Shown here in pieces: positions 37,610 through 39,572 of a stretch of DNA of 51,330 nt; positions within the stretch are counted from its first letter, which is position 1; the number at the start of each line of letters is the position of its first letter. The translations under genes and the position numbers were made by a program. The stretch is from Deltaproteobacteria bacterium (lineage in GTDB: Bacteria > Desulfobacterota > Desulfuromonadia > Geobacterales > Pseudopelobacteraceae), in NCBI GenBank assembly GCA_021778115.1, contig JAJYCS010000007.1, forward strand, positions 1-51,330. The letters are read 5' to 3'. A model generated the notes under the pieces. The model ran no database searches. It was not told the DNA's origin and worked only from the letters and a program-made list of their open reading frames with translations.

Positions 37610-37711
37610 GTTGCATTGTGCAACGACGTTGTGCTCTGTTGCAGTTTTAGCTGATTTCGTAAAATCGGATAGTTACACTTGATGTATCCGATTTTTGTTG
37701 CATAAGCAACA
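37610..37711. promoter_or_regulatory. Cluster of GTTGC dyads in the 337-bp gap before the small-protein pair
   Basis: Two inverted repeats, GTTGCA-N3-TGCAAC (37610-37624) and TGTTGC-N4-GCAACA (37696-37711), and a TGTTGCA half-site (37637-37643) between them. Such dyads are the usual form of enhancer sites for activators of sigma-54 promoters, but the protein is not identified. The rest of the gap is AT-rich and codes for nothing recognisable. Confidence 0.5.
37661..37696 (+). terminator. Terminator of the haem kinase operon
   Basis: An 11-base-pair stem AAAATCGGATA/TATCCGATTTT with a 13-base loop, ending in a T run (37691-37696). It is AT-rich but perfectly paired and lies about 115 bases after the receiver-kinase stop. 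Confidence 0.55.
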
Positions 37712-37749: not shown

Positions 37750-37882
37750 CTAATTCACATAAACGTATAATATAATTATATTTTTATTTTTTATCGATGG
37801 TTGCACAGACTTTGGCATGCTCTGTGTAATATAGTCTGGCAAGAAGTCACCAATCACCATCCCCATACAAAGGAGAACGACC

Positions 37883-38035
37883 ATGAAAGCGAAAAACAAC
37901 TTCTCAACGCTGGTAGCAGAAACCACCGCCCGCGGCAGCCTGGCCGTCTTTGCCGGTGTCACCATCTTCCTGGCCGGTTTCGTCACCTGGTCGGCAGCCA
38001 GTGCGGTAGGCGCCATCGTCCATCTCTTCAGCTAA
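37883..38035 (+). CDS. Small membrane protein A of a tandem pair (50 aa)
   Basis: Begins MKAKNNFSTLVAETTARG and continues into one hydrophobic helix (about residues 19-46, with SLAVFAGVTIFLAGF and TWSAASAV), ending HLFS. AAAGGAG is well placed before the ATG. The next gene encodes a relative that shares MKAK, LAV(x)AGV, AG, V(x)W(x)A(x)S and a final (L)xS. I know no function; it is probably an inner-membrane peptide. The codon choice matches the neighbouring genes, and the start, Shine-Dalgarno and partner make a real gene likely. Confidence 0.75.
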   Translation: MKAKNNFSTLVAETTARGSLAVFAGVTIFLAGFVTWSAASAVGAIVHLFS

Positions 38036-38103
38036 CAGACAACGGCAGACAAGGATACAAAGACTCCGCCCTGTAGCGGACCCCCTACGAAAGGAGCTTC
38101 ACC

Positions 38104-38250
38104 ATGAAGGCAAAAGTTAGTTACTCTGATCTTGATGATCGCAAATATATCGGCAAGGTGCTGGCGGTAGCCGGCGTGTTTGCCGCCGGCGCAGGGTTGG
38201 CCGTGGCTTGGCCCGCACTTAGCCACATAGCCCTGCGGCTCGTAAGCTGA
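38104..38250 (+). CDS. Small membrane protein B of a tandem pair (48 aa)
   Basis: Begins MKAKVSYSDLDDRKYIGK and then one helix (about residues 18-45, VLAVAGVFAAGAGLAVAW), ending RLVS. Its leader (GAAAGGAGcttcaccATG) resembles that of the first gene, 68 bases upstream. The shared MKAK start and aligned helix suggest a duplicated gene pair. A terminator follows at 38278. Function unknown. Confidence 0.75.
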   Translation: MKAKVSYSDLDDRKYIGKVLAVAGVFAAGAGLAVAWPALSHIALRLVS

Positions 38251-38277: not shown

Positions 38278-38304
38278 AAAAAAGGCCCCGTGGGGGCCTT
38301 TTTC
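38278..38304. terminator. Bidirectional terminator between small-protein pair and acyl-CoA genes
   Basis: A stem of AAAAAAGGCCCC and GGGGCCTTTTTC with a three-base loop, flanked by A and T runs on both sides. It can stop the plus-strand small-protein transcript and also the minus-strand beta-oxidation transcript that ends at 38433. Confidence 0.88.
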
Positions 38305-38432: not shown

Positions 38433-39572
38433 TCAGGCAAGCAGCATCTTCGAGATCACCACCCGCTGCACCTCGTTGGTCCCCTCGTAGATCTCGGTGA
38501 TCTTGGCATCACGATACATCCGCTCCACCTCATAGTCGCAGATGAAACCGTAGCCGCCGTGGATCTGGATCGCTTCCTTGGTGACAAAGGTGGCGGCCTC
38601 TGAGGCCAGCATCTTGCACATGGCCGATTCCATGGCGTAGTTCAGATGGGCATCCTTCATGCAAGCTGCCTTGTACGTCACCAGTTTGCTGCTCTCAATC
38701 CGGGCGTACATGTCGGCCAGCTTGAACTGGATCGCCTGCAGTTCACTGATCGGCTTGCCGAACTGTTTCCGTTCCTTGGCATAGGCCAGGGCCCGTTCAA
38801 AGGCGCCTTCGGCAATCCCCAGCCCCTGCGCGGCGATGCCGATCCGGCCGCCGTTCAAGGTGTCCATGGCGATCTTGAATCCCTGCCCCTCCTGCCCTAG
38901 CAGGTTTTCTGCCGGGATCCGCACCTCGTCCAGGGCAAAGGCGGTGGTATAGGTGCCACGGATACCCATCTTGTTCTCGTGTTTGAGGATGGAGACGCCG
39001 GGGGAGGTGAGATCCACGATAAAGGCCGATACCCCCTTGTGTTTCAAGGTCTTATCGTGGGTGGCGAACAGGACGCCGGTACCCAGGTAGCCGCCGTTGG
39101 TGATGAAGATCTTGGAACCGTTGATGACGTACCCATCACCCTCTTTGCGGTAACTGGTGGTGATGGCGCCGGCGTCGCTGCCGGCGTCCGGCTCGGTGAG
39201 CAGGATGCAGCCTATCTTGCTGCCGCTGTTCAGGTCGGGCAGCCACCGCCTCTTCTGGGCTTCCGTGCCGAAGGTGTCGATGGGGCCGCAGGCAAGCGAG
39301 GTGTGGGCCGAGATCAGGACCCCGCTGGATCCGCAGGCCTTGGAGACCTCCTCGATGACGATGACGTAGGAGAGCATGTCCAGGCCGGACCCACCGTATT
39401 CGGCAGGGAGGTAGCTCCCCAGGAATCCCATCTCACCCATTTTCCGCACCAGCTCGTCTGGTATGGCGTGTTGTTCGTCGATCCGGGCGGCGATCGGTTT
39501 GATCTCCTTGGCGACAAAATCCCGCACCGCATCCTGTAATACCCTGTGATCCTGGCTCAGTTGAAAGTTCAT
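38433..39572 (-). CDS. Short-chain (butyryl-CoA type) acyl-CoA dehydrogenase
   Basis: FAD enzyme oxidising acyl-CoA to enoyl-CoA. The 379-residue protein has LLTEPDAGSDAGAITTSYRK, a GSKIFITNG lid segment and the catalytic-base motif EIYEGTNEVQR near the C-terminus, where short-chain dehydrogenases carry the glutamate. It is the last gene of the minus-strand set of five, so it takes part in butyryl-CoA or similar oxidation. No etfAB is present in the window, so the electron acceptor is encoded elsewhere. Confidence 0.94.
   Translation of the reverse strand: MNFQLSQDHRVLQDAVRDFVAKEIKPIAARIDEQHAIPDELVRKMGEMGFLGSYLPAEYGGSGLDMLSYVIVIEEVSKACGSSGVLISAHTSLACGPIDTFGTEAQKRRWLPDLNSGSKIGCILLTEPDAGSDAGAITTSYRKEGDGYVINGSKIFITNGGYLGTGVLFATHDKTLKHKGVSAFIVDLTSPGVSILKHENKMGIRGTYTTAFALDEVRIPAENLLGQEGQGFKIAMDTLNGGRIGIAAQGLGIAEGAFERALAYAKERKQFGKPISELQAIQFKLADMYARIESSKLVTYKAACMKDAHLNYAMESAMCKMLASEAATFVTKEAIQIHGGYGFICDYEVERMYRDAKITEIYEGTNEVQRVVISKMLLA

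Follow-up and report, generated by a model that had tools for sequence, protein, structure and literature searches.

The window, a 51,330-nucleotide stretch of a deltaproteobacterial contig, contains two very short ORFs, here called ORF1 and ORF2, which raise the question of whether they are genes at all and, if so, what their products do. An earlier note, made from the sequence alone, had described them as two MKAK-starting genes of 50 and 48 codons, each with a well-placed GGAG, and both the coordinates and the ribosome-binding sites were confirmed (Table 1). The bidirectional terminator that it had seen behind the pair also holds, as the hairpin folds on both strands (−20.5 and −19.6 kcal/mol; z −2.3 and −3.7), although it was absent from the output of a simple terminator scan of the window. 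This hairpin is placed between ORF2 and a convergent ORF at 38433 to 39572 (acyl-CoA dehydrogenase-like, by eye), and response regulator and receiver-kinase genes are found 5′ of the two ORFs.

Table 1. Features of the ORF1-ORF2 locus, given in positions of the window.
Feature	Position	Strand	Description or basis
Distal palindrome GTTGCATTGTGCAAC, putative enhancer-binding-protein site (UAS)	37610..37624	.	204 bases upstream of −24 GG
Proximal palindrome GTTGCATAAGCAAC, putative UAS	37697..37710	.	117 bases upstream of −24 GG
A+T-rich tract between UAS and promoter	37760..37800	.	Direct reading; similar tracts by eye in other leaders
Sigma-54-type promoter TTGGCATGCTCTGTGTA	37812..37828	+	−24 GG exact; −12 is GT, not GC
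ORF1 ribosome-binding site AAGGAG	37870..37875	+	Direct sequence reading
ORF1	37883..38035	+	50-aa single-span membrane protein, O1 class (...F...F..WS...), MKAK start
ORF2 ribosome-binding site AAAGGAG	38090..38096	+	Direct sequence reading
ORF2	38104..38250	+	48-aa single-span membrane protein, O2 class (...AWPALSHI...), MKAK start
Bidirectional intrinsic terminator-like hairpin AAAAAGGCCCC-GTG-GGGGCCTTTTT	38279..38303	.	Folding, both strands

Being very short and without a family match, the ORFs might have arisen by chance in an intergenic regulatory region, and the check set beforehand in the earlier note was whether they are conserved in relatives with synonymous-rich change. Matches to ORF1 were found in 12 of the 57 genomes searched and matches to ORF2 in 14, the window's genome included in both cases, with 1 to 4 copies in each. 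Among the copies, the median dN/dS was 0.13 for ORF1 and 0.08 for ORF2, values that pool orthologs and paralogs, come from non-independent pairs, and cover the pairs with dS of 0.05 to 3 (323 of 351 for ORF1 and 144 of 351 for ORF2; the others were excluded). Differences fell on codon positions 1, 2, and 3 in proportions of 25, 16, and 59% (ORF1) and 22, 18, and 60% (ORF2). With conservation and a dN/dS far below 1, the check therefore does not refute the two genes. The codon-position bias also contradicts an origin by chance, as do homologs of matching length from other families, and we give such an origin a practically negligible probability. By these comparisons, ORF1 and ORF2 are real genes under purifying selection.

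Both ORFs are present in 10 of the 15 Trichlorobacter genomes (genus assigned from named records), nine with two to four copies of the pair and one, G011, with a single copy. The records carrying the pair are Trichlorobacter thiogenes and Trichlorobacter, Geobacter, Geobacteraceae, or deltaproteobacterial MAGs. Four Trichlorobacter genomes (G002, G004, G005, and G013) have neither ORF, and G001 has no ORF1 and a distant ORF2 alone. The window's genome has a second copy of the pair on another contig, 90% (ORF1) and 96% (ORF2) identical to the first. In profile searches, ORF1 had matches in 15 of 141 genomes of the order and none in the other 126, ORF2 had matches in 45 of the 244 genomes sampled from the class (12 families), and a phylum-wide sample, at a stricter E-value, gave matches in 3 of 297 genomes, all from the same class. 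The pair thus exists in several copies and belongs to a large family that extends across the class, among metal reducers and related bacteria, which goes beyond what the earlier note had claimed.

The single hydrophobic helix proposed for each protein was recovered by two methods. AlphaFold2 predicted one helix for ORF1 (H2-49, pLDDT 89) and one for ORF2 (H7-47, mean pLDDT 78), and hydropathy gave a single strictly hydrophobic stretch apiece, with about 15 to 19 residues ahead of it and 12 to 14 behind in the small proteins. Judged by charge, the N-termini are probably inside. The earlier note had also taken the two proteins for related duplicates, and a comparison of their profiles aligned 43 columns with 95% probability and 30% identity. 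Since the profiles align at this level, an old duplication is likely, although they are shallow and the MKAK.nYS start and one Trp give much of the signal.

As had been supposed, the proteins belong to no known family that we could find: no Pfam or NCBIfam model reached its cut-off for ORF1 or ORF2, no Pfam model matched 21 ORF2 relatives at E 0.01, and PHROGs and PDB searches returned only E-values above 0.02. Faint similarity to ATP synthase subunit c and to NdhE/4L looks like an effect of composition and was discarded. A mobile or phage element was also rejected, as groups of copies have common neighbors across genomes and there was no good PHROG match. Searches of the open-licence literature, with the terms used, turned up no description of such a small-protein pair and no named small partner of CbcL or ImcH, and no such protein is named in the accessible part of a G. 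lovleyi proteomics study (PMC6113397).

We then considered the region ahead of the pair, described before as dyad-rich and as a control region of its own. The dyads correspond to the two palindromes in Table 1, and the control region could be specified as a sigma-54-type promoter with an imperfect −12, preceded by palindromes resembling activator sites. Compared with the −24 GG/−12 GC pattern and its TTGGCACG-N4-TTGC spacing, the window promoter matches in the −24 and the spacing and has GT at −12; the RpoN consensus of G. sulfurreducens, as given in the part of PMC2725144 at hand, is TTGGCACGGTTTTTGCT. The A+T-rich tract is possibly a bending or IHF region. Sigma-70 promoters were predicted in the window leader as well, one per strand (two versus 0.7 expected), and this reading was set aside.

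The same layout was looked for in the leaders of 25 of the 27 copies, L081 and L084 having been dropped for short upstream sequence. A sigma-54-like element, with a GGCA(C/T)-type −24 and a TG(C/G/T) −12, was present in 24 of these 25 leaders (200 shuffles: mean 1.8, maximum 8), as were GTTGC..GCAAC-type palindromes (24 of 25; 200 shuffles: mean 0.9, maximum 5); both patterns were written after viewing the same leaders, and the shuffles therefore control for composition only. Proximal palindromes lie 116 to 129 bases from the −24 GG and distal ones 184 to 212 bases, and some leaders do not have both. At −12, the pair promoters frequently read TGT or TGG; the canonical TGC occurs in two pair leaders (L069 and L078).

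In the window's genome, the second copy of the pair shares an operon with genes for a nine-heme quinol oxidase of the CbcL type and for a sigma-54 activator. The order is NifX-like protein, ORF1, ORF2, Zn-ribbon protein, cytochrome c0 (CbcL), usually a 2-TM protein, sigma-54 activator, and TPR protein, and counterparts were found at nine other loci of the Trichlorobacter-plus-G031 set, some of them ending at contig ends. The NifX-like protein (105 aa) has a weak likeness to NifX/MrpORP-C and the Zn-ribbon protein to IS1595-type domains, the activator has two PAS domains, and in relatives the gene for the small 2-TM protein sits between CbcL and the activator. CbcL has been described as having nine CX2CH motifs (c-hemes) in its N-terminal half and six C-terminal helices related to HydC/FdnI cytochrome b (PMC6295460, in part). 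Nine CX2CH in the N-terminal half, by which we judged CbcL membership, were found in 24 of 25 c0 members, while the remaining one, ended by the region edge, has 4. The C-terminal part of c0 is FdnI-like, with a weak match to the TIGR01583 formate-DH gamma model (E 0.0015, below cut-off), and most full-length members show 4 to 5 C-terminal helices at a strict hydropathy cut-off, compared to the six described. In these features c0 appears to fit the published description of CbcL, and that in the available part of PMC9129911 also fits.

CbcL was found in 52 of the 57 relatives, generally as a single copy. Among 19 relatives without an ORF1 match, the CbcL regions (9 to 14 kb) contained no NifX-like, Zn-ribbon, TPR, or 2-TM neighbor; an activator match lay near CbcL in only two (31 to 39% identical), and NrfD or FeS genes did so in seven. 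In G001, ORF2 is directly 5′ of CbcL (starts 222 bases apart), together with the 2-TM protein and the activator. At three loci (L061, L062, and L074), genes resembling those of an uptake [NiFe]-hydrogenase (large subunit, small subunit, and cytochrome b; by eye) were seen 5′ of the pair-bearing cbcL operon, in divergent orientation.

Adjoining the cbcL operon is a further gene, c7 (about 90 aa, starting MKAKxNYG or similar), with the same leader layout and, by eye, a canonical TGC −12 in seven of eight Trichlorobacter c7 leaders. In the window's genome (contig C22, L199:1602-2165), an extra single-helix ORF was observed between the palindrome/sigma-54-like leader and c7 (MKAKCNYGGLVG..., 90 aa). 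It has 53 codons from an inner ATG (MTTISQITH...YVGWSVCFVL...) and a 54-codon counterpart in G009, and it would add another small membrane protein, the third, to the putative regulon.

A strict scan (GTTGCA N0-3 TGCAAC) gave 53 sites in the ten pair-bearing genomes, where the reversed pattern gave 4; the five remaining Trichlorobacter genomes had 7. Thirty-six of the 53 precede the pair, the NifX-like gene, or c7 (one being the c7 of G008), and the 2.29-Mb window genome has 3 in total, including the distal site of Table 1. For 16 of the 17 palindromes outside those leaders (all but G010:C97:18573), inspection revealed no convincing sigma-54 element followed by a start; one, in the window's genome, sits inside a recJ-like frame (by eye), and another (L242) lies 86 bases before a Tat-signal protein. 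Three of these sites, conserved GTTGCAAATGCAAC palindromes in three Trichlorobacter relatives (L244, L246, and L249), lie about 74 bases ahead of NrfD, where an NrfD-FeS-cytochrome operon starts, and come with no sigma-54 element. None of GTTGC, TTGCA, and GCAAC occurs in the main text of the sigma-54 regulome paper PMC4641369.

An ortholog of the operon's activator (at least 79% identity) was found in nine of the ten pair-bearing genomes and in G001, and was absent from G002, G004, G005, and G013, where no protein exceeded 62% identity. In G008, a genome that is 79% complete, the pairs carry palindromes, but CbcL had no match and the activator is only 65% identical. The window's genome encodes two more PAS-type sigma-54 activators (L255 on contig C89 and L256 on contig C65), 62 to 66% identical to that of the operon; the paralog regions L254 to L256 were covered by a motif scan, and the L255/L256 activators could equally be the regulator of the palindromes. 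Outside the genus, 5 of 48 leaders score at least 16.7 for a sigma-54 site (those of L160, L171, and L178, and of the single O1 genes in G116 and G151) and one of 48 has a GTTGC palindrome, counts for which start codons were guessed and, for within-operon arrays, the stretch scanned is not the operon promoter. The sigma-54/palindrome layout is not general outside the genus.

In other genera, profile searches yielded related genes in 44 loci, a selection among the class-wide ORF2-profile matches, where they stand singly or in arrays of up to four. Their products start with MKAK, MKTQ, or M(K/R)(A/V)EN, among others; the O2 class ends in AWPALxxIgxKL and the O1 class carries F...F..WS. The AWP-A-L core is almost invariant in 77 O2 sequences, and likewise F---F--WS in 37 O1 sequences. 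Conservation along the helix peaks close to the helical angle, at a periodicity of 98 degrees for O1 (p 0.02, n 37) and 96 degrees for O2 (p 0.07, n 77), with p values from permutation, uncorrected for relatedness among the sequences. Recent local duplications were seen at L170 and L186, which have the same small-gene pair twice, about 1 kb and 2.8 kb apart, respectively, with identical proteins, and a fresh within-array duplication in G151 (L155:6789-7366), where two near-identical tandem O1 genes precede O2.

Counting one array per locus and strand, 25 of the 47 arrays outside the genus lie within 6.5 kb of a CbcL or ImcH-like gene: 15 are at CbcL (G116 and G151 contribute two arrays each, on both strands, counted at one CbcL), and 10 more at an ImcH-like gene. 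Of the rest, 1 is at NrfD/FeS only and 21 are at none of these. The Trichlorobacter-plus-G031 set has 28 arrays, of which 10 are at CbcL. The other 18 are away from CbcL, ImcH-like, and NrfD/FeS genes, and among them L064 is an operon copy that the contig edge cuts off. The window copy is of the standalone kind, with no adjacent cytochrome gene. Each of the 11 ImcH-like genes is oriented divergently to its array, at a distance of about 120 to 520 bases, and all 11 products have three N-terminal helices and six heme motifs (five CX2CH and one CX3CH); the one product tested matched NrfH at the expected location, over residues 114 to 219 (E 1.4e-14, below the model's cut-off). The account of ImcH in the available portion of PMC6295460 gives three N-terminal helices, NapC/NirT-like first hemes, and 6 to 10 heme motifs, and by this description, with CX3CH counted as a heme motif, the neighbor c7n would belong to the ImcH family.

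The frequent position of arrays beside quinol-oxidizing cytochromes suggests that the small proteins are helper parts of respiratory machinery. This is guilt by association, drawn from gene linkage, and it lends support to the respiration-linked accessory peptide of the earlier note; the stress link that the note offered as an alternative finds no pointer in these results. As about half of the arrays have no adjacent cytochrome gene, the link is not universal, and since CbcL is present in 52 of 57 relatives and ORF1 in only 12, the pair appears dispensable for CbcL as such. With about half of the arrays unlinked and most CbcL-bearing relatives lacking the pair, any accessory role must be optional or confined to certain conditions.

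Genes for type I toxin-like hydrophobic peptides can likewise be small, tandem, and multicopy, and ORF1 and ORF2 resemble them in size, hydrophobicity, and tandem multicopy state. The strong purifying selection, the conserved charged N-terminus, the recurrent place in respiratory operons, and the activator-type promoters all speak against a toxin, and no Rfam family reached threshold within the window, though most antitoxin RNAs are outside Rfam; we consider this identity very improbable. PspB and PspC act on the phage-shock regulator, and the pair could in the same manner be regulatory peptides instead of enzyme subunits, sensing or relaying the membrane or quinone state to the sigma-54 activator. 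The pair is co-encoded with the PAS-PAS activator in the cbcL operon and is itself preceded by the sigma-54 layout, so that a feedback loop would result. However, this activator is missing within 6.5 kb of all 11 arrays that neighbor ImcH-like genes, few leaders outside the genus are sigma-54-like, and only the short flanks of the hydrophobic stretch are left for binding a regulator, which makes such a role rather unlikely.

We return to accessory subunits. We propose, at roughly even chances, that the pair encodes single-span inner-membrane accessory proteins of CbcL/ImcH-type menaquinol-oxidizing modules, with an extra dose supplied by dispersed sigma-54-controlled operons. ORF1 and ORF2 would be co-transcribed and serve such cytochrome modules across the Desulfuromonadia: CbcL (nine c-hemes plus an FdnI-like b domain) in Trichlorobacter and near relatives, and ImcH-like or NrfD/FeS/cytochrome modules elsewhere. 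One conserved helix face, in O2 with G24, A27, A35, W36, L39, and I42, would probably pack against the large subunit or a partner helix, and this packing could stabilize or assemble the complex or tune quinol access, as for other small respiratory subunits, and thereby affect respiration. The window copy, as one of the dispersed extra operons, would add to the dose once its GTTGCA..TGCAAC palindromes are bound by a sigma-54 activator; the likeliest candidate is the PAS-PAS enhancer-binding protein of the cbcL operon. CbcL and ImcH are actual or proposed gates through which menaquinol electrons pass to extracellular acceptors in Geobacter-type bacteria (PMC6295460, in part). If a multicopy, co-regulated single-helix family is indeed tied to these gates, it would be a missing component of them and come with a defined sigma-54 regulon.

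The same linkage, with the multicopy, paired, and single-span nature of the small proteins, would also suit membrane-organizing proteins that, at high dose from many copies, shape a quinol-oxidase-rich membrane, and the A-rich start codons (MKAK) may favor strong translation. Intracytoplasmic membranes, one such membrane, have been reported for G. sulfurreducens under thermodynamic limitation (PMC10082016, in part). The lack of ORF1 in 126 of the 141 genomes of the order argues against this function, which we regard as unlikely.

Finally, we compared the proposed accessory proteins with known systems. The pair's operon resembles that of the CbcL and CbcL-MtrH-MtoC quinol oxidases (G. sulfurreducens GSU0274) in its c0, with nine CX2CH and an FdnI-like membrane part, but the available parts of the published CbcL accounts (PMC6295460 and PMC9129911) mention no small pair, NifX-like protein, or sigma-54 activator beside CbcL, whereas the pair's operon has all three. 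With sigma-54/enhancer-binding-protein regulons, the pair shares the TTGGCACG −24, the upstream palindromes, and an activator gene in the operon, and it differs in the frequent departure of the −12 from TGC. Small respiratory subunits such as CydX, CcoQ/FixQ, and NapE/TorE are like ORF1 and ORF2 in size, single helix, and location in or near respiratory operons, while ORF1 and ORF2 have no Pfam or NCBIfam match, are usually tandem partners, and have dispersed extra operons. The light-harvesting alpha/beta pairs (pufBA and pucBA) are tandem single-span proteins of about 50 aa, with one copy in a redox-enzyme operon and others dispersed; they are paralleled here by a tandem pair, a copy in a cytochrome-bearing redox-enzyme operon, and dispersed copies under common control, although there is no sequence match and no conserved His in ORF1, and the analogy is one of architecture only. 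By this analogy, the pairs might be a non-photosynthetic counterpart of light-harvesting/PufX-type proteins, forming oligomeric belts or super-complexes around CbcL and ImcH in which the enzyme is kept together with a local quinone pool. The dispersed operons would then adjust the ratio of belt to enzyme via a redox-sensing sigma-54 activator, an idea that we find quite improbable. Small respiratory accessory subunits are already known, and a two-class tandem array with dispersed sigma-54-controlled copies is, to our knowledge, new.
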